DNA of 64,000 nucleotides from Desulfovibrio psychrotolerans. GTDB lineage: Bacteria; Desulfobacterota; Desulfovibrionia; Desulfovibrionales; Desulfovibrionaceae. The translations under genes were made by a program, and so were the position numbers. Within the stretch, counting starts at the first letter, position 1, and each line of letters starts with the position of its first letter. Location of the stretch: contig NZ_BLVP01000035.1 of the NCBI RefSeq assembly GCF_013340305.1, positions 62,001-126,000 of the forward strand. The letters are read 5' to 3'. The notes beneath the pieces are model-generated. The model did no database searches, was not told the DNA's origin, and was given only the letters and a program-made list of their open reading frames with translations. Below, in pieces: positions 708 through 62,015 of the stretch.

Positions 708-1229
708 ATGCTCGACAAGCTCTTCACATCCAAAACGCGCATCAAGCTGCTCCTCAAGCTTTTCCTTAACCCTGAGGTCTCTTCCTATCTGCGCGAATTA
801 TCCAGCGAGTTCAGCCTTTCACCCAACGCGCTGAAAGAGGAATTGGACGGCCTGAGTCAGGCGGGGTACCTTGACAAGGAAAAGAAAGGACGGAACATCT
901 ACTACAAGGCCAACACACGGCATCCTTTCTTTCCGGAAATCAGCTCCATCGTGCGCAAACATTTCGGCATAGACAGGGTGATCGAGCAGATTCTCACCCA
1001 CCTTGGCGACGTACAGGAAGTTTACATTCTGGACGACTATGCCAAAGGGGTGGACAGCGGCATAATTGACGTGCTCGTCGTCGGCAACGTAGACCCCAAT
1101 AAACTGCACGGTGTGGCACAGCCCATAGAGAAAAAGCTGGGCAGAAAGATCAGAACCATGGTCATGCCCACCAGCGAATTTAACACAACCAGTCTGCTGG
1201 CTAAACGCCCGTATTGGAAGGCATATTAA
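708..1229 (+). CDS. Winged-helix regulator with degenerate nucleotidyltransferase-like domain
   Basis: A 173-residue protein. Residues 1-80 form an ArsR/MarR-like winged helix (LRELSSEFSLSPNALKEEL is the recognition-helix region, followed by a basic wing around KKGRNIYYKA). Residues ~95-173 look like a minimal nucleotidyltransferase fold, but the usual GSxxxG and DxD catalytic signatures are degenerate: they read DDYAKG and IIDVLVVG. Such fusions occur in polysaccharide clusters and are thought to be regulators. The ATG at 708 is chosen because translation from there begins directly with the winged helix; an earlier in-frame ATG at 621 overlaps the previous gene by 49 bases. No good Shine-Dalgarno is visible. 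It lies 2 bases before the aldolase gene and probably controls the cluster. Confidence 0.7.
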   Translation: MLDKLFTSKTRIKLLLKLFLNPEVSSYLRELSSEFSLSPNALKEELDGLSQAGYLDKEKKGRNIYYKANTRHPFFPEISSIVRKHFGIDRVIEQILTHLGDVQEVYILDDYAKGVDSGIIDVLVVGNVDPNKLHGVAQPIEKKLGRKIRTMVMPTSEFNTTSLLAKRPYWKAY

Positions 1230-1231
1230 CC

Positions 1232-1993
1232 ATGCGTCCCCCTATGACCATAGCTGCATTACGCCAAAAACTTTCAACTGGCGGGCACACCGTTGGATCG
1301 TGGATGCAAATTCCCTCGCCCGATGTAGCCGAACTTATGGGCAATTCAGGGTATGACTGGATTGCTGTGGACCTAGAACACGGCGCCTTTACCCGCAGCG
1401 ATCTCCCGGACACATTTCGCGCCATTGACCTAGGCGGCTCGCTGCCTTTTGCCCGGGTTGCGGACTGCACCATGACCTCGATCAAGGGAGCCTTGGATTC
1501 CGGAGCTGCGGGTCTCATCTTTCCCATGATCGAATCCCGTAAACAACTGGACGATGCTATCAGCCTTTCTCTGTACCCGCCCAACGGAATACGCGGAGTC
1601 GGCTATTGTCGAGGCAATCTGTTCGGCAAGCAGTTCGAACAGGGCGTTGCTGCCAATCCCGACCTCTTTTTCTGTGCACAGATTGAGCACGTGCGGGCTA
1701 TAGACAACCTGTCGGCCATTCTTGCTCACCCCAGACTGGACGCGATTATGGTAGGCCCTTATGACCTTTCCGGCTCCATGGGCTTGACCGGGCAGTTCGG
1801 ACACTCTGACTTTACGCAAGCTCTTTCCCGCATTGCTGAATCGGCGCGATCCGCATGCATCCCCATGGGGCTGCATGTTGTACAGCCCGACGCAGCAGCA
1901 CTGCGCAGCAAGATTGAGGAAGGATACCAGTTCATTGCGTACGGAATTGATTCCGTGTTTTTGTATAACAGTGCCGAAAGGCCCATCTGGTAA
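1232..1993 (+). CDS. HpcH/HpaI-family class II pyruvate aldolase
   Basis: A 253-residue protein of the HpcH/HpaI aldolase family, which joins pyruvate to an aldehyde (or the reverse) to give 2-keto-3-deoxy acids. The active-site set is complete and spaced as in E. coli HpaI: His50 in DLEHG, Arg75 in FARV, Glu152 in QIEH and Asp178 in GPYDLSG, the last two being metal ligands. The start at ATG 1232 is preceded by GGAAGG; a GTG/ATG further up would overlap the regulator. Neighbours (cytidylyltransferase, HAD phosphatase, dehydrogenases) suggest an anabolic role, making a sugar acid for a surface glycan instead of degrading aromatics. The substrate aldehyde cannot be read from the sequence. Confidence 0.82.
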   Translation: MRPPMTIAALRQKLSTGGHTVGSWMQIPSPDVAELMGNSGYDWIAVDLEHGAFTRSDLPDTFRAIDLGGSLPFARVADCTMTSIKGALDSGAAGLIFPMIESRKQLDDAISLSLYPPNGIRGVGYCRGNLFGKQFEQGVAANPDLFFCAQIEHVRAIDNLSAILAHPRLDAIMVGPYDLSGSMGLTGQFGHSDFTQALSRIAESARSACIPMGLHVVQPDAAALRSKIEEGYQFIAYGIDSVFLYNSAERPIW

Positions 1994-2010
1994 TAGTGGT
2001 TAGACGCACC

Positions 2011-2919
2011 ATGAAGATTACAGTATTTGGCGGAGCCGGGTTCCTCGGCTCACACGTATGCGACAAGCTGTCCGCTGCCGGGCACGACGTCGTCATCTTC
2101 GATATCCGCAAGTCACCATACCTGCGCGATGATCAGAAGATGATCGTGGGCAACATCCTTGACGAGCAAAGTGTTCTAGATTCGGTCTCCGGCGCTGATG
2201 CGGTGTTCAACTTCGCTGGCATCGCCGACATCGGTGAGGCCAACGGACGCCCCATAGACACCGTGACCTACAATATTCTCGGGAATACCATCGTCCTGGA
2301 TGCCTGCCGCCAAGCCAAGGTCAAGCGATTCCTGTTTGCCAGCTCCGTTTACGTATACAGCGACTCCGGCGGATTCTACCGCTGCAGCAAGCAGGCCTGC
2401 GAGCTGTTCATAGAACAGTTTCATAAGAACTACGGACTAGAGTATACCATCTTGCGTTACGGCTCCCTATACGGCTCGCGTGCTGATGAAAAAAACGCCA
2501 TTCACCGATTCGTCAAAGAAGCCCTGACCACAGGGTCTATTACCTATTACGGCTCACCCGAGGCGCTACGGGAATACATACACGTAGAAGATGCTGCCCT
2601 GACCAGCGTGGAAATCCTCAAGCCGGAATACGCAAACCAAAACATCGTGCTCACCGGACACCAGCAAATGGCCGTAGGCAACGTGCTGAAGATGATCGGG
2701 GAAATGCTGGGCAAAGATCTTGACCTGCGCTTCCTGTTCGATTCAGACAGCAACCACTATCTGATCACACCGTACAATTTTAGCCCACGCATGGGGAAAA
2801 AAATCACCCCCATCCTGCACACCGATCTGGGGCAGGGCGTTTTACGACTCATCGAGGAACTGCACCAGGAAATTAATCCCGACATGCAGAATGTCGGCGG
2901 CTATCTGATAAAAGGGTGA
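2011..2919 (+). CDS. NAD-dependent epimerase/dehydratase
   Basis: A 302-residue extended short-chain dehydrogenase. The N-terminal Rossmann motif GGAGFLG is at residues 7-13, and the catalytic YxxxK is Tyr123-Lys127 (YRCSK) with serines at 111-112. The family converts nucleotide-sugars by epimerisation, dehydration or reduction in the cytoplasm. ATG 2011 is preferred because MKITVFGGAGFLG is the usual family start; a GTG at 1996 is possible. The next gene follows within 3 bases, so the two are translationally linked. Position between an aldolase and a cytidylyltransferase suggests it modifies the same surface sugar. The substrate is unknown. Confidence 0.8.
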   Translation: MKITVFGGAGFLGSHVCDKLSAAGHDVVIFDIRKSPYLRDDQKMIVGNILDEQSVLDSVSGADAVFNFAGIADIGEANGRPIDTVTYNILGNTIVLDACRQAKVKRFLFASSVYVYSDSGGFYRCSKQACELFIEQFHKNYGLEYTILRYGSLYGSRADEKNAIHRFVKEALTTGSITYYGSPEALREYIHVEDAALTSVEILKPEYANQNIVLTGHQQMAVGNVLKMIGEMLGKDLDLRFLFDSDSNHYLITPYNFSPRMGKKITPILHTDLGQGVLRLIEELHQEINPDMQNVGGYLIKG

Positions 2920-2921
2920 GC

Positions 2922-3689
2922 ATGAACATCATTGCAGTTATTCCTGCCCGTATGGGCTCCAGCCGTTTCCCCGGCAAACCCCTTGCCGATATACACGGGG
3001 TGCCCATGATCGGCCACGTTGCCTTCCGTACCGCCATGTGCACATCACTTACCGCCACGTATGTCGCTACCTGCGACAGTGTGATCATGGACTATTGCAC
3101 ATCCGTTGGCCTTAAGTGCGTAATGACTGCAGACACCCATGAGCGCTGCACCACCCGCACCGCAGAAGCCCTGCTCAAGATCGAAGAAGAGCTCGGCATC
3201 AGGGCGGACATCGTGGTTATGGTACAGGGCGATGAACCCATGACCACACCGGAAATGATCGAAGCCGCCGTAAAACCCATGATCGCAGACCTTTCAATTA
3301 ATGTGGTCAACCTGATGGGCGACATGAAGACCGTGGAGGAGTTCGAAGATCCCAACGAGGTCAAGGTGGTTGTGGACCTGAACAACGATGCCCTCTATTT
3401 CTCGCGCGAGCCGGTACCGTCCCGCAAGAAGGGCGTAACCAACGTGCCCATGCGCAAACAGGTCTGCATCATCCCCTTCCGCCGCGACTATCTGCTGCGC
3501 TTCAACGCGTTACCGGAAACACCGCTGGAAATAATCGAATCCGTGGACATGATGCGTATCCTTGAACATGGCGAAAAGGTGCGGATGGTGCCTTACGCGG
3601 CAAACACCCTCTCAGTCGACACGCAGCACGACCTCGACCGCGCCATCGAAATGATGAAGAACGACGCGCTGCGCAAAAAGTACAGTTAG
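2922..3689 (+). CDS. KdsB-like sugar-acid cytidylyltransferase
   Basis: A 255-residue protein of the CMP-Kdo synthetase (KdsB) family, which transfers CMP from CTP to a 3-deoxy-2-ulosonic acid. The CTP-binding signature ARMGSSRFPGKPL is at residues 9-21, the metal-binding VQGDEP at 101-106, and a late VDT near residue 235 matches the second metal site. The length equals that of typical KdsB. ATG 2922 is chosen because AAAGGG lies just upstream; a GTG at 2916 would overlap the previous stop. No KdsA (Kdo-8-phosphate synthase) is nearby; the pyruvate aldolase two genes earlier may supply the sugar acid. It could be ordinary KdsB or a paralogue for another ulosonate. Confidence 0.82.
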   Translation: MNIIAVIPARMGSSRFPGKPLADIHGVPMIGHVAFRTAMCTSLTATYVATCDSVIMDYCTSVGLKCVMTADTHERCTTRTAEALLKIEEELGIRADIVVMVQGDEPMTTPEMIEAAVKPMIADLSINVVNLMGDMKTVEEFEDPNEVKVVVDLNNDALYFSREPVPSRKKGVTNVPMRKQVCIIPFRRDYLLRFNALPETPLEIIESVDMMRILEHGEKVRMVPYAANTLSVDTQHDLDRAIEMMKNDALRKKYS

Positions 3690-3693
3690 CACC

Positions 3694-4563
3694 ATGACTG
3701 ATACGAAACGCAAACTTACCCGCCTCTATGCATGGCTTATAAGCCTGCCTCTGGTGATGCTACCCAGAAACAAGCACCTTGCCTTCCGGGCGATGCTTGC
3801 CGAAGACATGGTCCCCACAGCTACGGTGAAAACAAAGCACTCCACACTGAAACTCCACTGTCCGGGCCGCCTGTTGGCGTATAGGGCAAACACGTTCCAC
3901 ACAAAGGAACCCGAGACACTTGCCTGGATCGATTCCTTTGAACCGGGTGACGTCTTCTGGGACATTGGCGCAAACGTGGGCCTGTATTCGCTCTACGCAG
4001 GCAGCAGAGGCACCCAGGTACTTTCATTTGAACCGGCGGCTCCAAACTTCTATCTGCTGTGCAAGAACGTGCATCTTAATGATCTCGGAAAGATGGTCAC
4101 CCCGCTCTGCATTGCCCTTGGCGGCAGCAACGGCCTGCTGCCACTCTCCATGTCCTCCATGGACCTGGGCGGGGCGGAGTTTTCTTTGAACGAGCAGGCG
4201 GGGTCGATTTCCGGTGCAGGGTCCGTGCAACTTGCTATAGAATTCAAGCAGCAGGTCATGAGTTACACCATCGACTCTCTAGTAAGGGAACAGGGCATTC
4301 CGTTCCCCAACCACATCAAAGTTGATGTAGACGGAATAGAAGAATTAATCCTTTCCAATGGTGTCCAAACGCTGGCCGATCCAAAGGTTAAAACCCTCGC
4401 GCTTGAAACTAACATGGACGATACAGGGTTTGTCGAGCGAATCACGGCACTTGTCGAGTCACTCGGCTTCAAGCTCTACCTCCGAGAACGCAGTCCTATT
4501 TTTGACAACACGCGCTACCAGAATTTCTACAACAGTTTTTACAGAAAAGTGGGACAGCCATGA
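3694..4563 (+). CDS. FkbM-family methyltransferase
   Basis: A 289-residue S-adenosylmethionine-dependent methyltransferase. Motif I is DIGANVGLY at residues 90-98, followed by an acidic strand end in LSFEPAAPN, and the characteristic FkbM post-motif KVDVDGIEELIL lies near residue 215. FkbM enzymes O-methylate sugars or polyketides, so this likely methylates a hydroxyl of the surface glycan. A hydrophobic patch near residues 12-24 could be a helix or a weak membrane contact. It starts 4 bases after the cytidylyltransferase and overlaps the next gene by 4 bases, so the genes form one operon. Confidence 0.85.
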   Translation: MTDTKRKLTRLYAWLISLPLVMLPRNKHLAFRAMLAEDMVPTATVKTKHSTLKLHCPGRLLAYRANTFHTKEPETLAWIDSFEPGDVFWDIGANVGLYSLYAGSRGTQVLSFEPAAPNFYLLCKNVHLNDLGKMVTPLCIALGGSNGLLPLSMSSMDLGGAEFSLNEQAGSISGAGSVQLAIEFKQQVMSYTIDSLVREQGIPFPNHIKVDVDGIEELILSNGVQTLADPKVKTLALETNMDDTGFVERITALVESLGFKLYLRERSPIFDNTRYQNFYNSFYRKVGQP

Positions 4564-5465
4564 AAATCGCCATCACCACCTCGTCATTTGCCAAATTCAG
4601 TGACGCGCCCCTGCAACTGCTGCGGGACGCAGGCATCGAGTACGTGCTCAACCCGCACGGACGCAAGCTGACTGAAGAGGAAACGATCGAGGTACTGCAG
4701 GGCTGCGTGGGCGTGGCTGCGGGAACAGAGCCCCTGACGGAGCGTGTCATGGCCGCGCTGCCCGAGCTCAAAGCCATTTCCCGCTGCGGCACCGGCATGG
4801 ACAATGTGGACCATGCCGCAGCCAAGGCACGAGGCATTGCCGTGCGCAACACCCCGGACGGGCCCACGTTGGCGGTTGCAGAGCTCACCCTCGGCTATGC
4901 GCTCGACCTTATGCGCAAGGTCACCCAGCAGGACCGCGAGCTGCGTTCCGGCGTGTGGAAAAAGCGCATGGGCAACACCCTGAAGGGAAAGAAGCTCGGC
5001 ATAATCGGCTTTGGCCGCATCGGGCAAGCGGTGGCTTCCGTGTTTGCTCCGCTGGGCGTTGAAATCGCCTTCAACGACCCTGTCGCCACATCCGACGCCT
5101 ATGCAAGCAAAAGCGTGGACGACCTGCTCTCGTGGGCGGATATCCTCACCCTGCACTGCTCCAAGACCGGTGGCGAATGCTCCTTGTTCACCACAGAGCG
5201 CCTCATGCAGATGAAGAAGGGTAGCTGGGTCATCAACGCCTCTCGCGGCGGCATCATCGAGGAAGACGCCCTGTACGAACTTTGCAAATCAGGTCATCTT
5301 TCCGGTGCCGCAATCGACGTGTTCGACAAGGAACCTTACGACGGCCCTCTGAAGGAGCTGGATAGCGTCATCCTCACCCCGCACATCGGCTCCTACGCCA
5401 TGGAAAGCCGCATCCAGATGGAAACCGACACCATCCTGAACCTGCTGGATGCCCTGAGGGGATAA
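4560..5465 (+). CDS. D-isomer-specific 2-hydroxyacid dehydrogenase (phosphoglycerate dehydrogenase-like)
   Basis: A 301-residue NAD-dependent dehydrogenase that interconverts 2-hydroxy and 2-keto acids. The NAD motif GFGRIG is at 150-155, and the catalytic triad is Arg229 (NASRGG), Glu258 (DKEP) and His275 (TPHIGS). The regulatory C-terminal ACT domain of SerA is absent, as in many short forms. It starts inside the preceding stop (ATGA, 4-base overlap). In this cluster it may act on a glycerate-type precursor or on the keto group of the sugar acid; serine synthesis is less likely given the context. Confidence 0.82.
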   Translation: MKIAITTSSFAKFSDAPLQLLRDAGIEYVLNPHGRKLTEEETIEVLQGCVGVAAGTEPLTERVMAALPELKAISRCGTGMDNVDHAAAKARGIAVRNTPDGPTLAVAELTLGYALDLMRKVTQQDRELRSGVWKKRMGNTLKGKKLGIIGFGRIGQAVASVFAPLGVEIAFNDPVATSDAYASKSVDDLLSWADILTLHCSKTGGECSLFTTERLMQMKKGSWVINASRGGIIEEDALYELCKSGHLSGAAIDVFDKEPYDGPLKELDSVILTPHIGSYAMESRIQMETDTILNLLDALRG

Positions 5466-5468
5466 CCA

Positions 5469-6119
5469 ATGCCCGTTTCCCTAATTGTTTTCGACTGCGA
5501 CGGCGTCATCCTTGAAAGCGTGGAAGCCAAGACCCACGCCTTCGGGCAGGTGGTGGCAGAATTCGGCCCGGAAGCGGTGGCCCGCCTTATCACGTATCAT
5601 AACGCCAACGGCGGGGTAAGCCGGTACAAGAAGTTCGAGTGGTTCTATGCCGAGGTGCTGGACAAATCCATCACCGAAGAACAGTCGCAGGCTATGGGGC
5701 GCAAATTCGAGGAACTTTCCTTTGCCAATGTCATGAGTGCCCCTATGGTTCCCGGGGCATTGGAGGCCATACGTTCATTCCATGGGAGAATCCCCATGTA
5801 TGTCGCCTCCGGTGCGCCTCATGAGGAATTGAACGTGATATTGAAGGAACGTGGCCTCTCCGGTTATTTTGAAGGAATTTACGGCTCCCCGCCCGGTAAG
5901 ACGGAGTTGTTACGCCTGTGCATAGAGCGTGCGGGGGTTCAAGCGGCGGAAACGCTTATGGTGGGCGACAGTTCCACGGACCTGAAAGCGGCAGAAGCCA
6001 ACGGCACCCTGTTCTACGGGAGAGGAAAGGGCTTTGCGGACAGCGCGTGGCCATGGGGGGAAGATCTCCGACCATTGTTTCTCGACGCTGACCTTGTTTT
6101 CAATCACAGCAACAGATAG
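5469..6119 (+). CDS. HAD-superfamily phosphatase
   Basis: A 216-residue haloacid dehalogenase hydrolase. Motif I is DCDGV (nucleophile Asp9, general acid Asp11), motif II is in YVASGAP near residue 120, and motif IV is GDSSTD near residue 172. A helical cap follows motif I, as in the beta-phosphoglucomutase/Gph subgroup. It begins 3 bases after the dehydrogenase stop. By analogy with KdsC in the Kdo pathway it may remove a phosphate from the sugar-acid precursor before CMP activation. That role is inferred from context only. Confidence 0.8.
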   Translation: MPVSLIVFDCDGVILESVEAKTHAFGQVVAEFGPEAVARLITYHNANGGVSRYKKFEWFYAEVLDKSITEEQSQAMGRKFEELSFANVMSAPMVPGALEAIRSFHGRIPMYVASGAPHEELNVILKERGLSGYFEGIYGSPPGKTELLRLCIERAGVQAAETLMVGDSSTDLKAAEANGTLFYGRGKGFADSAWPWGEDLRPLFLDADLVFNHSNR

Positions 6120-6130
6120 GATACCGTCTC

Positions 6131-7021
6131 ATGCAGCGGTTTATTGATCCGAGCACACGACGCAAGAGAAAGATTATTGCGGATCGCATCAGCACGGTTG
6201 ATGGCGTTCCGGTTTTTTCCATTGTCGAATTCAACATTCACGGTTCCTGTACCCGCGCCTGCCCCTTCTGCCCTTTCTACGATCCTGCCGTCTACAAGAA
6301 AAATCCTGTGGCCATGGATTTCGGCCTGTACCAAAAAATTATTCGGGAACTGGAGTCCATCCAGTACGCAGGCAAGATTCTTTACTCCGGGTTTTGTGAG
6401 CCTCTGCTGAACAAACACATCACCGAGTTCATCGCGTTCACCCGCAAAACACTACCCAACTCCCGTATTGAAATGGTGACCAATGGTGATCTGCTCACGA
6501 AGGAAGTTCTGCTCTCTCTTCTCGACGCCAGCCTGGATACCATCAACATTTCCATATATGACGGCCCGGCAGAGGCGAAACAGTTTGAGCTACTGGTTGA
6601 AGAAGCCAATGTTCCGGAAGGCGCTGTTGTTCTGCGCAGGCGATACAAGACCGAAACCAACTTTGGCATGACCATTTCCAACCGGTCCGGCCTTATCAAC
6701 TCCAACGCCTATCGAGACGAGAATGAAACGCCACCGGAACTGCCGCTGCACCAGCCCTGCTACTATCCGTTCTACATGATCATGGTGGACGTGGACGGCA
6801 GCCCACTGCTCTGTCCTCACGACTGGAAAAAGCTGTCCGGATTGGGCAATCTCAAGACCGAATCCCTACTGTCTGTATGGAACAGCAAGAAGATGAACGC
6901 ATGGAGAAAGCGGCTCATCAATTGCAAGCGCGATTTTGATCCCTGCGCCCTCTGTGACGTCGACGGGCTTGTCATGGGAGAAGAACATTTCCAGCTATGG
7001 AGAGAGTCTCTTGGCGAGTAG
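6131..7021 (+). CDS. Radical SAM protein with SPASM domain
   Basis: A 296-residue radical S-adenosylmethionine enzyme. The 4Fe-4S motif CTRACPFC supplies Cys40, Cys44 and Cys47 (CxxxCxxC). The C-terminal part has a SPASM-like cysteine set, including PLLCPHDW and DPCALCDVD, likely for an auxiliary cluster. Relatives with SPASM domains carry out sugar dehydrogenation or epimerisation, or modify peptides; in a glycan operon a sugar-modifying role is the natural guess. It starts 11 bases after the HAD gene, and its 3' end overlaps the following dehydrogenase by 11 bases. Confidence 0.78.
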   Translation: MQRFIDPSTRRKRKIIADRISTVDGVPVFSIVEFNIHGSCTRACPFCPFYDPAVYKKNPVAMDFGLYQKIIRELESIQYAGKILYSGFCEPLLNKHITEFIAFTRKTLPNSRIEMVTNGDLLTKEVLLSLLDASLDTINISIYDGPAEAKQFELLVEEANVPEGAVVLRRRYKTETNFGMTISNRSGLINSNAYRDENETPPELPLHQPCYYPFYMIMVDVDGSPLLCPHDWKKLSGLGNLKTESLLSVWNSKKMNAWRKRLINCKRDFDPCALCDVDGLVMGEEHFQLWRESLGE

Positions 7022-7730
7022 CATAGCACTGGTAACAGGAGCTTCGGGCGGCATCGGAACCGCCATCGTCAACGCTCTGCTAGCACGGGGGATACATGTT
7101 ATCGCCCAGCATAACAACACCCCACTTTCCGAGAGTATAGCCGAACATCCCGGGCTGACCGCTCTGCGCTGTGATTTTGCCGATCAACAAGGGAGCCTCG
7201 CGCTTCTGGATGCCGTGCTGGCAGAACACGGCGGGCTGGATATCCTTATCTGCAACGCCGCATCCTACCACGGATATGCGTCACTGGATGATATTGCGGT
7301 ACAGGATCTTGAAACGTCCTTCGCCATCAATACCTTCATGCCCTTTCTTCTCGCCCAGCGGGCGCTGCGGTATATGGAACCGCAACAGCGGGGTCGCATT
7401 CTCTTTCTCTCCAGCATCGGAGTCAAATTTGGAGGCTCCATCGCATCGCTTCCCTACGCCTCTTCCAAGGCCGCGCTGGAAACAATGACCATCACGCTGG
7501 CCAAACGGTATGCCGAACTCGGCATACCCTGCAACGCTGTACGTGTCGGTGTCACAGATACCGGGATTCATGCACGAAACCCTTCCAAGGACATGGGCAA
7601 GAGAGTATCTCTCATCCCAGCAAAGCGCATGGCCAGACCCGAAGAGATTGCCAACGTAGTATGCTACCTGACTCTGGACGCGCCAACATTTCTTACCGGG
7701 GCCGTCATTCCTGTTTCCGGCGGCGAGTAA
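7011..7730 (+). CDS. Short-chain dehydrogenase/reductase (TTG start)
   Basis: A 239-residue classical SDR of the FabG type. The NAD(P) motif TGASGGIG is at residues 9-16, NAAS follows near 82, and the catalytic residues are Ser134/Ser135, Tyr149 and Lys153 (YASSK). The C-terminal LTGAVIPVSGG is typical of the family. The start is probably TTG 7011, preceded by TGGAGAGA; no ATG or GTG fits the beginning of the Rossmann strand. The gene overlaps the radical SAM gene by 11 bases. It probably reduces a keto sugar in the same pathway. Confidence 0.8.
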   Translation: MASSIALVTGASGGIGTAIVNALLARGIHVIAQHNNTPLSESIAEHPGLTALRCDFADQQGSLALLDAVLAEHGGLDILICNAASYHGYASLDDIAVQDLETSFAINTFMPFLLAQRALRYMEPQQRGRILFLSSIGVKFGGSIASLPYASSKAALETMTITLAKRYAELGIPCNAVRVGVTDTGIHARNPSKDMGKRVSLIPAKRMARPEEIANVVCYLTLDAPTFLTGAVIPVSGGE

Positions 7731-7744
7731 CCCGCTTTACTACC

Positions 7745-9262
7745 ATGCAGCCACCTCCGCACCTCCGCACTCTGTTCACGGCATTCAGCGCCGTCAACCG
7801 CAAGGCCTTCGTCACCCGGCAACTCAGGTTCAACTTTGTTCTCAGCAAGGTTCCGGCGGAAACATCCCTGTTCACAGACTACCTTTCAGGAAAGGCCATC
7901 CCCAAGACAACTTTGTTGGAAACCGCAGCCTGCATCGTACGATATTACATGGTAAACATGGCCCTATTTCTATTCTTCTGCCTCACCAAACTGCTGCACA
8001 TTATATCCGGCCAACGGTGTCAGATTCCGGGCCCCGACAGCGTGATCTTGGATAGTTACTGTGTCGTCCCACGCATTCTGAAGAGCGGAGTATTTGCGGA
8101 TTCCTATTTCGGTGATATCGCCCACGTGCTGGAACAGCAACGCACCCCCATAGTGTACCTCCCCAGACTCTATGGCTCGCGCAACCCCCTGACCTACATA
8201 AAGCTGTTCGTTCTGCTGAAAGAATCTGGAGCGAATGTCCTTACCGAATATCAACTGATTTCTCCCCGCCAGCTTCTCAGCCTGTGGTGGGACCTGCTCT
8301 CCATGCCGTATCATGTCCTGCGCCTGTGCGGCGATCTGGACCCGACATCCCGAGAACAGGCATTCATACGCCACGCCCTAATACGTGGACTACGAAGCGG
8401 ACACCTTGACCCATGCTCGCGCTACTGGGCAGCCATGCGACTTGGCAGCCAGCTTGATGCCACGGCAAAACCCATCAGTTGGTATGAAAACCAGTCCGTT
8501 GACAAAGCCTTTTCGCGCGGATTGCGCGATGGCGGCTTCAGCGGCAGGCACTACGGCGCACAGTTGCTTGTCTGGCCCGCAACGCTGCTTAATACCCACC
8601 GTGATACGGTTGATGAAGTCTACGACATGACACCCGACATTGTTGTCGTGAACGGACCTTATTTTCTTCCCGACGACGATAATGACGGGCAAAGCGTCTA
8701 CCGCTGCGGCCCTTCTATGCGTTACAAACACATTTTTGAACGTGCCGCAACGCGCAATCTGCAAGGCCCAGCAACGGTTCTGCTGTCCTATTTCCATGAC
8801 GAAACCTTACGAACCCTGCAGGCCATTCGACCACTGTTCTCCAAGATTGGTCTGCGATTCAAGTTTCATCCCGCAACCAACCCCCAACGCTATAGGGAAT
8901 TTCTTCCCGAAAACGCGACCATCGTCACGGGATCTCTCATTTCCGCCATCGAGGGCTCGTCCGTAGTCATCGGGTCCGGCACCGGCACTCTTGCAGAAGC
9001 CGTAGCGCTCGGCATTCCCGCCATTACCGTGGAAAGCCCGGACCGCTTCTGCCACAACTACCTGCCCCCGTTCGGCAAGGGCATTCTCTGGGAGGTATGC
9101 AGTGCTCCCGAACGTATCGACACCGTACGCAGCACCCTGCTCTCTGCAACCTCCCCGCAACAGCGTGAGGATATGCGCAGGCAGTTCAGGGACCTGCTTT
9201 TCCGTGACCCCACAGAGGAAGCAATCCTCGAGGCTTTTGACCTGCGGCCCAATGCAGCGTAA
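7745..9262 (+). CDS. Putative surface-carbohydrate glycosyltransferase, GT-B-like
   Basis: A 505-residue protein not assigned with certainty. Residues ~75-95 form a hydrophobic segment. The C-terminal third looks like the donor-binding half of a GT-B enzyme: LRFKFHPATNP, then SSVVIGSGTGTLAEAVALG and a conserved proline, the 'serine-glycine-threonine, glutamate, glycine' loop seen in capsule and polysaccharide transferases. It resembles the kind of protein annotated as surface carbohydrate biosynthesis protein. The fragment at 1-669 shares the general layout. ATG 7745 lies 14 bases after the SDR stop; no strong Shine-Dalgarno is seen. A transferase for the sugar made by the preceding genes is the best guess. 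Confidence 0.55.
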   Translation: MQPPPHLRTLFTAFSAVNRKAFVTRQLRFNFVLSKVPAETSLFTDYLSGKAIPKTTLLETAACIVRYYMVNMALFLFFCLTKLLHIISGQRCQIPGPDSVILDSYCVVPRILKSGVFADSYFGDIAHVLEQQRTPIVYLPRLYGSRNPLTYIKLFVLLKESGANVLTEYQLISPRQLLSLWWDLLSMPYHVLRLCGDLDPTSREQAFIRHALIRGLRSGHLDPCSRYWAAMRLGSQLDATAKPISWYENQSVDKAFSRGLRDGGFSGRHYGAQLLVWPATLLNTHRDTVDEVYDMTPDIVVVNGPYFLPDDDNDGQSVYRCGPSMRYKHIFERAATRNLQGPATVLLSYFHDETLRTLQAIRPLFSKIGLRFKFHPATNPQRYREFLPENATIVTGSLISAIEGSSVVIGSGTGTLAEAVALGIPAITVESPDRFCHNYLPPFGKGILWEVCSAPERIDTVRSTLLSATSPQQREDMRRQFRDLLFRDPTEEAILEAFDLRPNAA

Positions 9263-9301: not shown

Positions 9302-10069
9302 ATGAAAACCATCATCCTCTGCGGCGGCAAGGGCACCCGCATGCGCGAAGAGACCGAATACAAACCCAAGCCCATGGTGGAAATTGGTGGCAAGCCGGTC
9401 ATGTGGCACATCATGAACCGCTACGCCCGGTATGGTTATAAAGATTTCGTGCTGCCGCTGGGTTACCGGGGCGAGTACATCAAGCAATATTTCTGGGAAT
9501 ACAAGATACGCAACACAGACTTCACCGTAGACCTTGCCAGCGGCGAGGTGCAGACCCACAACGCCTGCTGCACGGACTGGAAGGTCACGCTCTGCGATAC
9601 CGGCGAAGACACCCTTAAGGGCGCGCGCATCAAGCAGGTTGCCAGATACATAGACACGGAGCGCTTCATGGTCACCTACGGTGACGGCGTGTCGGATATC
9701 GACATAGACGCCCTTGTTGCCTTCCACAAAAAATCCGGCAAAATAGGCACCTTCACAGGCGTCCGCATGCCCTCGCGCTTCGGCACCGTGAAGACCGATG
9801 ACGAAGGCAATATCACCTCGTGGCAGGAAAAGCCCGTTCTGGACGAATACATCAACTGCGGCTTTTTCGTTTTCAAACGCGAGTTTCTGGACTACCTCAA
9901 TGAAGACCCTGAATGCGACCTGGAAAAGGAACCGCTCATGCGCCTTGCGGCGGAAGGGCAGCTTTCCATGTATCCGCATCCCGGTTTCTGGCAGTGCATG
10001 GATACCCTGCGCGACTACCAGAATCTGAACGCGCTGTGGAACAAGGGCAACGCCCCCTGGACCAAGTAG
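9302..10069 (+). CDS. rfbF: Glucose-1-phosphate cytidylyltransferase
   Basis: A 255-residue enzyme making CDP-glucose from CTP and glucose 1-phosphate, the first step of CDP-deoxyhexose synthesis in the cytoplasm. The start ILCGGKGTRMREETEYKPKP is the nucleotidyltransferase signature with the RfbF-specific continuation, and the length matches RfbF. From here rightwards the DNA is clearly GC-rich. It is separated from rfbG by 247 bases that contain a palindromic element, yet the genes are co-directional and functionally paired. Confidence 0.93.
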   Translation: MKTIILCGGKGTRMREETEYKPKPMVEIGGKPVMWHIMNRYARYGYKDFVLPLGYRGEYIKQYFWEYKIRNTDFTVDLASGEVQTHNACCTDWKVTLCDTGEDTLKGARIKQVARYIDTERFMVTYGDGVSDIDIDALVAFHKKSGKIGTFTGVRMPSRFGTVKTDDEGNITSWQEKPVLDEYINCGFFVFKREFLDYLNEDPECDLEKEPLMRLAAEGQLSMYPHPGFWQCMDTLRDYQNLNALWNKGNAPWTK

Positions 10070-15534: not shown

Positions 15535-16713
15535 ATGAACCACACACACCTCCGCATCGGCCCGCACCGGTTCTGCCGGACACATCGGATACACGGGTCT
15601 TTCCTGCTGCTTCTGCTGCTCTGGGCCGCAGTCTTTGCCGTCCCCGGCACTCCATGCGCACAGGCGCAGGAAGTGCCCGCCACCGCCGTTGCCCGTATTG
15701 CCCTGCTGCCGGAAACCCGGCAGGCCGTAGGTACTGTCCGACCACGCACAGAAACCCGCATAGAGGCGCAGATCACCGCCCGCATCCTCGAAATACGTGC
15801 GCAGTCCGGCAGCCGCGTCAACCGGGGCGATGTGCTGGTGGTGCTGGATACCCGCGAACTGGAGACCCTTAGCGGGCAGGCACAGCAGGGCATCTCCTCC
15901 GCGGCTGCTGCCACACGGCAGGCGCGGCAGGCCCTTGCCGCAGCAGAGGCGGAATTCGTCAAGGCAGAGGCCCACTACCGCCGCATCCGCACCCTGTATG
16001 AAACAGGCACCGTGGCCCGCAGCGAAATGGATCAGGCAGAAGCCGCCTACGCGCAGGCAGAGGCAGAAGTACGCCGCGCCCGCGATGGTGTTTCCGGGGC
16101 GCAGTCCGCAGAGTCACGTGCGGGCAAGATGCGCGAACAGGCGCAGATAGCGCTGGAATACGGCGAAATCCGGGCACTGGATGACGGCGAAGTGGTCCGG
16201 CGCGAGGCAGAACCGGGCGACCTGGCCTTTCCCGGCAAAACCCTGCTCATGCTGCAGACCGGCGGTTCCCTGCGGCTGGAAGCTCAGGTGCGCGAAGGAC
16301 TCATCGGCAGGGTACGTCCCGGCACCCCGCTTTCCGTCATCATCGGCTCTCTTTCCGATGCCCCCCTCACCGGCACGGTGGAAGAAGTGGTCCCCGCCGC
16401 AGACCCGCTCTCACGCACCTTTGAAGTACGGGTAGGGCTGCCTGCGGTGCCGGGACTCTATCCCGGAATGTTCGGCAGGCTGCTCATCCCCGTGGGCGAA
16501 AGCGAAACCGTGCTCATTCCCGCCGCAGCCGTTTCCCGCGTGGGGCAGCTAGAAACCGTGCGCGTCCGCGAGGGAGAGCAGGAAACACCGGTCTATGTGA
16601 AGACAGGCCGCACGTATCCCGCAGGGCAAAGCGGCACATATGACGAGGTGGAAATCCTGTCCGGTCTGCGCGGCGGTGAAACCGTGGTGCTGGAGGCAGG
16701 CCATGCACGATAA
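15535..16713 (+). CDS. RND efflux periplasmic adaptor (membrane fusion protein)
   Basis: A 392-residue exported protein. A signal peptide (basic start, Leu-rich core about residues 22-36, AQA site near 43) precedes a biotinyl-lipoyl half (RIEAQITARILEIRAQSGSR), a coiled-coil hairpin rich in Ala and Glu (about 110-205), the second lipoyl half and a beta-barrel. It links an inner-membrane RND pump to an outer-membrane channel. The pump gene overlaps its 3' end by 11 bases. A sigma-70-like pair ATAACA/TACAAT (15492-15520, 17-base spacing) sits very close to the start and is only suggestive. Confidence 0.88.
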   Translation: MNHTHLRIGPHRFCRTHRIHGSFLLLLLLWAAVFAVPGTPCAQAQEVPATAVARIALLPETRQAVGTVRPRTETRIEAQITARILEIRAQSGSRVNRGDVLVVLDTRELETLSGQAQQGISSAAAATRQARQALAAAEAEFVKAEAHYRRIRTLYETGTVARSEMDQAEAAYAQAEAEVRRARDGVSGAQSAESRAGKMREQAQIALEYGEIRALDDGEVVRREAEPGDLAFPGKTLLMLQTGGSLRLEAQVREGLIGRVRPGTPLSVIIGSLSDAPLTGTVEEVVPAADPLSRTFEVRVGLPAVPGLYPGMFGRLLIPVGESETVLIPAAAVSRVGQLETVRVREGEQETPVYVKTGRTYPAGQSGTYDEVEILSGLRGGETVVLEAGHAR

Positions 16714-19700
16714 GGATACCATGCCCGAAAAGCCCCTGTCGGAGCAGCCAGACGCCTCTCCCGCCCCGGATGATGGGGCAAATGATGCGGCAGATGATGC
16801 GACATCGGGGCAGCCGGCACATTCCGATGCGGCTGCGGATGCGAACGCTGAAGTGTTAACCGGCACTGCAACCGATACGGCAAACTGTGCGACAATTCAC
16901 ACGACAGCCGACGCGACAGCCGATTCCGCAACTAATGCGGCAGCCGGTGCTGCTGCGGGCCTGCTTATGGGCATAGTGCGCCAATTCCTCACGGGAAAAA
17001 ACGCCGTCCTCTTTCTCGTTTTCGCACTCTGCCTCGGCGCCGCAGCCATTTTCGTCACCCCGCGCGAGGAAGAACCGCAGATCGTCGTCCCCATGGCAGA
17101 CATCATGGTGCAGGTGCCCGGTGCTTCCGCCGAAGAAGTGGAAAAACTGGTCGCCACCCCGCTGGAACGGCTGCTCTGGCAGATAGATGGCGTGGAATAT
17201 GTCTACTCCACCTCGCAGCGCGATGGCTGTCTTGCCACTGTGCGCTTCCACGTGGGCGAGGACCGGGAAAACTCGCTGGTCAAACTGCATAACACCATCG
17301 CCACGCACCCGGACCTTGTCCCCTCCGTGGTCAGCGGCTGGGTGGTCAAACCGGTAGAGATAGACGATGTGCCCATCGTCACCCTCACCCTGCACGCCGA
17401 CCCGCAGACAGGGTACGGCCCCCACGAACTGCGCCGCATGGGCGAAGAAATGTTCCACCGGCTGGCGGAAACGGAAGATGTTTCCCGCTGCACCATCACC
17501 GGCGGGTTCCCGCGCGAGGTGCGTGTAGATCTCTCGCCCGAGGCACTCTCCGCCTTCCGCGTCTCCGCACTGGAAGTGCGCAACGCCCTTGCCGGTGCGG
17601 ACGCATCGGTCACGGCAGGCTCGCTGGACACGCGGAACCGCACCCTCACGGTCACGGCAGATTCGTTCCTGAACACACTGGAAGAGGTGCGCTCGCTGGT
17701 GGTGGGCGTGGCTGAAGACCGCCCCGTGTACCTTGCGGACGTAGCCACTGTCACAGACACCCACGCGGAACCCGTAGCGTACTCCCGCATCGGCTTTTCC
17801 GATGCGTACGCCAGCAGCGCAGGCCTGCCGCAAGGTCAGTCCCTGTCCGCCGTCACGCTGGCAATCTCCAAGAAAAAGGGCACAAACGCCGTGGCCGTGG
17901 CCCGTAACGTCATCGCCACGGCAGAACACCTGCAACAGACCGTGCTGCCCCACGGGGTGCACGTGCGCGTCACGCGCGACTACGGTGCCACTGCCCAGTC
18001 CAAGGTAACGGACCTGCTCTCCTCCCTCGGGTTTGCCATCGCCACCGTGGTGGCGCTGCTGGCCTTCACACTGGGCAGGCGCGAGGCACTGGTGGTGGCG
18101 GTCGCCGTTCCGGTCAGCTTCGCGCTGGCACTCACCGTGAACTGGCTGTTCGGCTACACCATAAACCGCGTCACCCTGTTCGCCCTCATCCTTTCGCTGG
18201 GCCTTGTGGTAGATGACCCAATAACCAACGTAGACAACATCCAGCGCCACATACGGCAGGGCAAGCTCCCCCCCCTGCCCGCCACTCTGGCGGCGGTGCG
18301 CGAGGTACTCACCCCGGTTATCATGTCCACGCTGGCCATCATCGCCTGCTTCATGCCCATGTTCTTCATCACGGGCATGATGGGTCCGTACATGGCCCCC
18401 ATGGCCGTTAACGTACCCCTCACCGTCATTTTTTCCACACTGTGCGCCCTCACCGTGGTGCCATGGCTCAGCCATCTGCTGCTCAGGCACCGCGCGGGCA
18501 GCGGCCAGATGCAGGAACTCACCCCCGCATGGATCGTGCGCAACTACAGACGCTGCGTGGAACCGTTTCTGGATTCCCGTAACGCGCGGCGCATCCTGCT
18601 GGGCGGCATCATGGCAGGCATGGTCTTCAGCATAGCGCTGGCAGGCTTCAGGCTGGTGCCGCTCAAAATGCTGCCCTTTGACAACAAGAACGAATTCCAG
18701 ATCGTCCTCGACCTGCCGGAAGGCTCCAGCGTGGAAACCACCGACCGCGCCGTGCGCGACATGGAAGCCTTCCTGCGCACCATGCCGGAGGTGACGGATT
18801 TCGTTACCTACGCGGGCACCTCTTCGCCCATGGACTTCAACGGCATGGTCCGCCACTACTACCTGCGCGGCGAGCCGCATCAGGCAGATATCCGTGTGAA
18901 CCTGCTGGATAAATCGCAGCGCTCAGCGCAGAGCCACGCCATTATCCTGCGCGTGCGCGATGCTTTGCAGGCTGTGGCAGACAGGCACGGCGCGCGCCTC
19001 AAAATCGTGGAAACCCCGCCCGGGCCTCCCGTGCTTTCCACCATCACGGCAGAAGTGTATGGCGAACCGGACCGCACCGTAGAGCAGCTTATCCGGGCGG
19101 CGTCCCACGTGCAGGACATCATGCGTCAGGAACCCGGCGTCACGGACATAGACGCCAGCTACGAATCCCCCCGGCAGCGTCTGGATTTTGCCATAGACAG
19201 AGAAAAAGCCGCCCTGCACGGCATAACCGCCCGCGCCATTACAGATACCCTGCGCCTTGCCGTGGGCGGCGGGCAGCCCGCCACCGTGCACCTGCCGGAC
19301 GAGCGGCAGGCCTTGCCTATCCGCGTGACCCTGCCGCGCGACAAGCGCTCCTCCACCGCCTCGCTGGAAGAAATTCCGCTCAAATCCGCCGCCGGCCACA
19401 TGGTGCCGCTGGGCGAGCTGGGCCGCTTCATTCTGCTGAAAGAAGACCAGCCCATCTACCACAAAAACCTCAGGCGTGTGGTCTACGTGTATGCAGAAAT
19501 GGCCGGGCGGGCACCGGCGGAAGCCGTGCTGGACATGTCCTCGGCCCTGCGCGCCCACCCCATGCCCCCGCGCACCCACGTGGTCTGGACGGGCGAAGGG
19601 GAGTGGAAAATCACCGTGGATGTCTTCCGCGACCTCGGCATCGCCTTCGGAGCCGCCATGCTGGTCATCTACCTGCTGCTGGTCCTGCAAACCGATTCCT

Positions 19701-61950: not shown

Positions 61951-62015
61951 CATCATCTCCAGTGCTCCCCCGTGCAGTCAGCCAGTCCTGCCAGTCTTGT
62001 CAGGGTCTGACGGAG

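Follow-up and report, generated by a model that had tools for sequence, protein, structure and literature searches.

A run of ten closely spaced genes in the genome of Desulfovibrio psychrotolerans contains five that together probably encode an aldolase-based pathway to a cytidine monophosphate (CMP)-activated 2-keto sugar acid other than 3-deoxy-D-manno-octulosonic acid (Kdo). The run lies at positions 708 to 9262 of a 64,000-nucleotide stretch, hereafter the window, which corresponds to positions 62001 to 126000 of contig C35 in a genome of 3.79 Mb. Synthesis of Kdo and of the nonulosonic acids is known to proceed through phosphoenolpyruvate (PEP)-dependent condensation. The five genes recur as a unit, their catalytic residues are kept, the C-terminal-domain signature of the cytidylyltransferase is divergent, and the genes occur in genomes without KdsA. 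Families were assigned by Pfam at the gathering level and by NCBIfam equivalog cut-offs. A first-pass annotation of the window had suggested a pathway of this kind, and the genes it named are present on the + strand, with their families confirmed by Pfam. The five genes, and the shorthand used here, are as follows:

1232 to 1993, + strand: g2 (ALD), HpaI-type class II pyruvate aldolase (HpcH_HpaI, PF03328, 1.6e-31)
2011 to 2919, + strand: g3 (EPI), extended short-chain dehydrogenase/reductase (SDR) of the NAD-dependent epimerase/dehydratase type (Epimerase, PF01370, 4.3e-41)
2922 to 3689, + strand: g4 (KDSB), KdsB-like CMP transferase/cytidylyltransferase (CTP_transf_3, 3.3e-43)
4560 to 5465, + strand: g6 (HDH), D-2-hydroxyacid dehydrogenase resembling phosphoglycerate dehydrogenase, no ACT domain (2-Hacid_dh_C, PF02826, 3.2e-49)
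5469 to 6119, + strand: g7 (HAD), HAD phosphatase (PF00702, 4.6e-19)

A recurrent five-gene core

Genes of the window were matched to 40 stretches (L068-L107) from 37 genomes of its family. ALD, EPI, KDSB, HDH, and HAD co-occur across these stretches and form the recurrent core, the full five not being present everywhere. When genes were clustered over 42 loci, both window loci included, ALD was found in 33, KDSB in 32 (a count that includes some canonical KdsB control loci), EPI in 24, HAD in 23, and HDH in 22; a hexapeptide-repeat protein accompanies the core in 13 of the 42. Flanking genes vary by genus, and gene order also varies; the core set persists, outside the family too. The partnership of an aldolase, a HAD phosphatase, and a KdsB-like enzyme on which the first-pass annotation was built is thus found across family loci and beyond them, and EPI and HDH, which it had counted among tailoring enzymes, look like core members.

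Linkage was examined in a survey of 288 family genomes, with identity thresholds of at least 57% for KDSB and at least 36% for ALD. KDSB was found in 116 genomes, ALD in 120, and both in 111; KDSB occurred without ALD in 5 genomes and ALD without KDSB in 9. Both genes lie on one contig in 100 of the 111, in every case no more than 2.9 kb apart from start to start, and on different contigs in the other 11. The hypergeometric P value for co-occurrence is 1e-61, a figure that ignores relatedness and is only indicative. The association of ALD with the KdsB-like gene is far beyond chance, though the genomes are related. Stretches around canonical KdsB genes served as controls (L102-L106, L228-L231, and L233-L235), and ALD was present in none of these twelve; nor was it found in L232, which is of intermediate type and was excluded from the twelve. 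In a stricter recount, which required flanks of 4 kb or more on both sides of the gene, ALD lay near 34 of 38 new-type genes, 3 of 4 intermediate genes, and 0 of 4 canonical genes; these numbers are small because identical proteins were counted once.

Exchanges of partners within the set are informative as well. At L090-L093 (genera g35 and g37), ALD, HDH, EPI, and HAD are present and the adjoining cytidylyltransferase is of the NeuA type; its member in L092 scores 82.5 bits against CTP_transf_3. In 4 of 5 far-branch loci, the remaining four core genes are accompanied by a NeuA-like enzyme, and L094 has the four core genes and no member of the NeuA-type cluster. In G143 and G150 (L088 and L089, from the genus of the window), a different cassette occupies the space between g1 (84% identity) and rfbF (93 to 94%). 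It comprises an HpaI-type aldolase (30%), a KdsB variant (39%), a HAD protein, an HMGL-like protein, and a ferredoxin-type protein, families tested in L088. That ALD and the cytidylyltransferase are swapped together, or the cytidylyltransferase alone is exchanged with the rest kept, points to a single pathway. The cassette, at L088:6650-13640 and in L089, also holds a 650-amino-acid protein without any Pfam match.

The cytidylyltransferase diverges in its C-terminal domain

Judged by sequence, the cytidylyltransferase (CYTIDYLYLTRANSFERASE) is not an ordinary KdsB and appears set apart from that enzyme. The g4 product scores 330 bits against PRK13368 (cut-off, 255) and 149.2 bits against the kdsB equivalog TIGR00466 (cut-off, 155.2). 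The latter score is no clean divider, because some new-type members exceed the kdsB cut-off, for example those of G357 (166.0) and G031 (162.6). We therefore turn to residues, using E. coli KdsB numbering and a new-type set of 115 distinct translations with at least 55% identity to g4, one of them a broken copy. The CTP/Mg-binding and catalytic residues R10, R15, K19, Q98, D100, R157, and D235 are kept in 114 or 115 of the 115, with Q98, D100, R157, and D235 retained in all. H181Q, E210D, Q211M, T125N, and D50C are substituted in all 115 and Y185I in 114, where E. coli KdsB and KpsU have the canonical H, E, and Q at 181, 210, and 211. We take H181, E210, and Q211 to be residues that contact Kdo. 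In the published A. aeolicus structure, Kdo binding is placed in the C-terminal domain, at residues 100 to 210, and binding of Mg-A at D95 and D219 (PMC3149649).

In an IQ-TREE phylogeny, the new type together with L125-L129 and L218 is split from all other sequences with a bootstrap value of 92; the value is 99 when L088 and L089 are added and 77 when L232 is added. E. coli KdsB and KpsU fall outside the new group. The cytidylyltransferases of at least 55% identity do not form a clade by themselves, as L125 falls inside them. The same division was recovered with FastTree, at local supports close to 0.9; nodes among the canonical sequences are often weak in these trees. The objection that the KdsB-like protein might group with ordinary KdsB in a genome with no other KdsB, raised in the first-pass annotation, fails on this placement and on the changed C-terminal-domain signature, and the genome of the window has another KdsB above the cut-off. 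We also considered a selenoprotein, as an in-frame TGA had been flagged in some KdsB matches, and set the idea aside; in L106, the one match read, the TGA is the gene end followed by one further match residue.

Active sites of the aldolase, dehydrogenase, and phosphatase

In GarL numbering, H50 is kept in 32 of 33 ALD sequences (the other has a gap), and R75, E153, and D179 are kept in all 33; the g2 product retains the positions common to GarL and RhmA. We take these four residues to have the catalytic and metal-ligand roles they have in GarL, and the complete HpaI-type active site described in the first-pass annotation is indeed there. ALD does not reach any of the equivalog cut-offs, scoring 140.7 bits for HpaI (cut-off, 368.8), 126.3 for GarL (406.75), and 121.4 for RhmA (441). 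Membership in this family, with HpaI as the best equivalog profile, would fit a catabolic HpaI/GarL-type aldolase that has hitchhiked into a surface-sugar locus. We regard this as highly improbable: ALD falls far below all three cut-offs, is partnered with the cytidylyltransferase, EPI, and HAD across different flanks, and is retained in the 1.4-Mb genome G114 (L097). The related objection, that the aldolase might group with enzymes of aromatic catabolism in a neighborhood that is not conserved, fails because the neighborhood is conserved; the aldolase itself was judged here by profile scores and neighborhood.

The catalytic triad of SerA (R240, E269, and H292) is kept in 22 of 22 HDH sequences, and SerA R60 and R62, which presumably bind phosphate, are found in none. 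Without these two arginines, HDH is probably not a typical phosphoglycerate dehydrogenase; for the same reason, a donor route from phosphoglycerate to hydroxypyruvate through HDH and HAD should be taken as no more than a possibility. The nearest solved structures for HAD are beta-phosphoglucomutase and phosphoglycolate phosphatase, and judged by these relatives it appears to be of a different type from KdsC, whose HAD type we assume for this comparison. Of the parallel drawn earlier with the KdsA-KdsC-KdsB series, the grouping of aldolase, HAD, and KdsB-like enzyme stands. EPI scored far under the cut-off of every NCBIfam equivalog listed for it.

Genomes without KdsA, NeuB, or lipopolysaccharide genes

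The proposed separation (INDEPENDENCE) from PEP-dependent synthases rests on genome counts of KdsA, a second KdsB, and NeuB. Neither KdsA nor a NeuB-family PEP-condensing synthase is part of the module core. Thirty-five genomes with the KdsB-like gene were examined, three of which (G339, G478, and G560) have no ALD in the stretch read. KdsA is present in 26, G000 among them, and absent from 9; a second KdsB above the cut-off is found in all 26 with KdsA and in none of the 9 without it. The genome of the window carries KdsA elsewhere. Eight of the nine KdsA-less genomes are at least 98% complete (G036, G038, G042, G049, G053, G100, G114, and G172), and G139 is 66% complete. NeuB-family synthases are present in 16 of 19 genomes searched, G000 included, and were not found in G053, G096, or G172. 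These three near-complete genomes, without KdsA and without the NeuB family, keep ALD and the KdsB-like gene: G172 (L078) has all five core genes, and in G053 and G096 ALD and KDSB, the two genes located there, are about 1.9 kb apart. We infer that in at least three genomes the substrate of the cytidylyltransferase is made by something other than KdsA or NeuB, for which the aldolase is the obvious candidate; a 3-deoxy-D-arabino-heptulosonate 7-phosphate (DAHP) synthase or salvage is also possible. An aldolase in place of a PEP-dependent synthase, the central suggestion of the first-pass annotation, agrees with these three genomes.

These counts bear on two explanations in which the product is Kdo. 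One is that the KdsB-like enzyme acts as an additional CMP-Kdo synthetase of the capsule type, like KpsU, fed by KdsA, with the aldolase incidental; KpsU (1gq9) is the best-scoring solved structure for g4, and most genomes with the gene have KdsA. This is unlikely, as KpsU has the canonical H, E, and Q and lies outside the new group, KdsA is missing from 9 of the 35, and all 11 genomes tested from genera g18 (Desulfovibrio) and g29 are without KdsD above the cut-off. The other is that ALD opens an alternative route to Kdo itself from arabinose 5-phosphate and pyruvate, with the same aldolase-phosphatase-cytidylyltransferase logic. The changed signature residues and the KdsA already present in 26 of 35 genomes make this very unlikely, as does the fact that the eight near-complete KdsA-less genomes also have no KdsD above the cut-off, no WaaA, and no LpxC. 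It would draw support from Kdo reported in D. desulfuricans lipopolysaccharide (LPS): a 2012 analysis of a strain of this species reports the presence of Kdo, heptose, and lipid A, and cites Gaylarde and Beech for the absence of Kdo from D. desulfuricans LPS (PMC3354558).

More broadly, KdsD above the cut-off was found in 3 of 14 genomes (G000, G027, and G219), WaaA in 18 of 32, and LpxC in 5 of 25; WaaA is absent from all 12 g18 genomes among the 32, and LpxC from 11 g18 genomes, 7 g39 genomes, G172, and G215. The g39 genomes without LpxC are G257, G260, G262, G264, G266, G268, and G270. In seven near-complete g18 genomes (G036, G038, G042, G049, G053, G100, and G114), we found no LpxC, WaaA, KdsA, second KdsB, or KdsD above the cut-off, a pattern suggestive of an outer membrane that lacks Kdo-lipid A; such an absence runs against the published LPS chemistry of a D. 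desulfuricans strain. KdsA has not been lost throughout g18: the gene is present in 16 g18 genomes, two of which, G041 and G097, lack WaaA and LpxC. In g18, the module is apparently not there for Kdo-lipid A, because the g18 genomes tested are without WaaA and LpxC even where, as in these two, KdsA is present.

Occurrence outside the family and points against the proposed pathway

A search of 395 genomes of the phylum recovered new-type or intermediate KDSB genes in other families, and ALD was found in 6 of 12 stretches around them (L216-L220 and L225). ALD, KDSB, HDH, EPI, and HAD occur together, in differing order, in L196, L207, L210, L213, and L215, whose records are named Desulfobacterales, Desulfobaccales, Thermodesulfovibrionia, Desulfobacula, and Deltaproteobacteria; L207 and L216 derive from one contig. 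Next to its intact module, L196 has another KdsB-like sequence, broken into two open frames (L196:3847-4530) and apparently a decaying duplicate. A protein of about 330 amino acids at L216:10062-11051, by eye resembling a methyltransferase with a Cys-rich start, has relatives (30 to 64%) near the KdsB-like gene in L068, L085, L095, L210, L218, L220, L225, and L226.

Several observations weigh against a single aldolase-based pathway. The genomes are related, so the linkage counts are not independent. EPI is missing at several family loci (L079-L082, L085, L086, and L095), and HDH is absent from all five g18 stretches read (L070-L072, L096, and L097); HDH relatives of 35 to 40% are encoded elsewhere in 10 of 10 g18 genomes, and in G172 an HDH (56%) adjoins KDSB. 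No enzyme making the acceptor aldehyde is evident. Outside the family, ALD was not matched in the other 6 of the 12 stretches (L221-L224, L226, and L227), of which L223 spans only 4 kb. L226 and L227 carry the KdsB-like gene with HDH, an SDR, an AroB-related gene, and an oxidoreductase (Gfo/Idh-like, the family being tested in L226 only), and no ALD. The AroB-related cyclases score 429.7 and 474.2 bits against TIGR04425 (cut-off, 400) and take the place of ALD, so the cytidylyltransferase can occur without this aldolase. L225 resembles these two loci by eye and has ALD as well, 4.7 kb away. From the three gene sets, the link of the cytidylyltransferase to HDH may be older than its link to ALD, and the product class may be broader than ulosonic acids; a CMP-activated carbocycle is possibly made by L226 and L227 and, by eye, L225.

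Taken further, the cytidylyltransferase would activate a hydroxy acid that is carbocyclic or otherwise not ulosonic, with HDH and the cytidylyltransferase as the older pair and ALD as one of several feeders. Besides the gene sets just described, it is in keeping with this that L127 and L128, the KdsB-like genes of L225 and L226, have Q181, D210, and M211. Within the family, however, the constant partner is ALD and not a cyclase, and even L225 has ALD; we consider this explanation quite unlikely and retain an aldolase-based route to a ulosonic acid.

Genomic context of the window locus

The ten genes of the run are separated by gaps of 2 to 17 bases or overlap slightly, an arrangement as in one putative operon. 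The remaining five are as follows:

708 to 1229, + strand: g1, ArsR-like winged-helix protein of 173 amino acids; NCBIfam ArsR matches weak and below the cut-off
3694 to 4563, + strand: g5, FkbM methyltransferase (Pfam FkbM, 7.1e-11; TIGR01444, 4.7e-23)
6131 to 7021, + strand: g8, radical SAM/SPASM protein (PF04055 Radical_SAM and PF13186)
7011 to 7730, + strand: g9, short-chain dehydrogenase (adh_short_C2, PF13561, 3.1e-40); the TTG start at 7011 is tentative, in an open frame that begins at 6936
7745 to 9262, + strand: g10, no Pfam family at the gathering level; weak Glyco_tran_28_C

The gene list of the first-pass annotation holds for the enzymes g2 to g9 and needs refinement at its ends, where g1 is ArsR-like and not an enzyme and g10 has no Pfam family at the gathering level. 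Relatives of g1 have 84 to 86% identity in L068, L088, and L089, from the genus of the window, and 66% in L083. As it borders two different aldolase and KdsB cassettes in those three loci, g1 appears to mark one edge of the locus within the genus. The suggested tailoring set fared less well than the core. The radical SAM gene g8 has no relative (E 1e-8) in any locus fetched except L007, that of the window itself, and seems private to it. Relatives of the short SDR g9 (28 to 34%) occur in L095, L221, L222, L225, L226, and L227 (whose gene is L129), a level usual for so large a family. For the FkbM gene g5, the 40 family stretches gave no match at E 1e-8; its relatives (35 to 39%) come from outside the family, in L196, L218, L225, and L227, and because they lie near the module there, FkbM may belong to a wider set.

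The g10 product is a probable glycosyltransferase and a candidate user of the CMP-sugar. Its relatives (39% in L075 and L211, 35% in L077, and 25% in L083 and L202) give weak DUF6716/Capsule_synth matches, and the copies in L075 and L077 are beside the module. We dropped its designation as a proven glycosyltransferase, given the lack of Pfam support at the gathering level and a poor AlphaFold model (mean predicted local distance difference test score, 52.7).

The run extends beyond 9262, the next gene starting at 9302; genes from there on resemble rfbF and rfbG (cytidine diphosphate-glucose), a label read by eye from the sequence. Upstream in the same genome (L006), NeuC, NeuB, and WbuX score above their cut-offs and LegB-like and PseF-like proteins below; further along are PseB, PseC, and PseI, above cut-off, then a PseF-like gene and an extra NeuB-family gene. 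Neuraminic/legionaminic-type and pseudaminic-type pathways thus lie side by side at L006:1026-17517, and the additional NeuB-family synthase, at 16444-17517, scores under both equivalog cut-offs. We also considered a flagellar role, as the module follows look-alikes of flgF, flgG, flgA, and flgH in L070 (named by eye) and L071 (same clusters); they are absent from the other mapped loci, and the association is not general.

Proposed pathway and comparison with known systems

We infer each chemical step, the order of steps, the product, the acceptor aldehyde, and the roles of HDH and EPI as follows. ALD would join an aldehyde, probably a sugar phosphate, to pyruvate (or hydroxypyruvate) to give a 2-ulosonic acid or its phosphate, from which HAD would remove the phosphate. 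KDSB would then use CTP to attach CMP at the anomeric hydroxyl, through the two-metal chemistry of KdsB, and a glycosyltransferase such as g10 could transfer the sugar to a surface glycan. HDH and EPI may be a redox pair that prepares the acceptor or adjusts the sugar.

If this is correct, CMP-activated keto acids would be reached by a second chemical route through the conserved aldolase-cytidylyltransferase module, whose enzymes could be used in synthesis. The module would also predict a new envelope sugar in gut and environmental Desulfovibrio, Nitratidesulfovibrio, and Bilophila relatives. Among titles and abstract openings in the open-licence literature, we found no paper pairing an HpaI-type aldolase with a KdsB-like enzyme. 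A bolder proposal, which we put forward as speculative and rather doubtful, is that aldolase-made CMP-activated ulosonic acids are a widespread, unrecognized class, and that in Desulfovibrio sensu stricto without KdsA, second KdsB, KdsD, WaaA, and LpxC the module supplies the acidic keto sugar of a lipid A-free envelope, in the place of Kdo. The module would bear on the disagreement in print over Kdo in D. desulfuricans LPS, as set out in PMC3354558, since the g18 genomes tested keep it without WaaA (12 of 12) and LpxC (11 of 11).

Among known enzymes, HDH shares with SerA (D-3-phosphoglycerate dehydrogenase) its family and the catalytic R-E-H triad; unlike SerA, it is without R60 and R62 in all 22 sequences and has no ACT domain. 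ALD has the presumed catalytic and metal-ligand positions of HpaI, GarL, and RhmA/YfaU, but it exceeds no equivalog cut-off, and its partners are biosynthetic rather than catabolic. The nonulosonic acid pathways (NeuB/NeuA, PseI/PseF, and LegI/LegF) yield an acidic keto sugar that is activated with CMP and goes into surface glycans, as the module would; nonulosonic genes lie upstream of the window, and L090-L093 have a NeuA-type cytidylyltransferase gene beside the module set. The module differs in having an aldolase and no NeuB-family synthase in its core, and three genomes have the pair without the NeuB family. A close parallel in logic is the Kdo pathway, KdsD-KdsA-KdsC-KdsB/KpsU, in which a ulosonic acid is built, dephosphorylated, and activated with CTP, steps that the genes suggest for the module, by a nucleotidyltransferase of the same family with the same catalytic residues. 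Compared with that pathway, the core has no PEP-dependent synthase, its HAD is apparently of another type, the C-terminal-domain signature of its cytidylyltransferase is changed, and it brings an extra dehydrogenase and epimerase.

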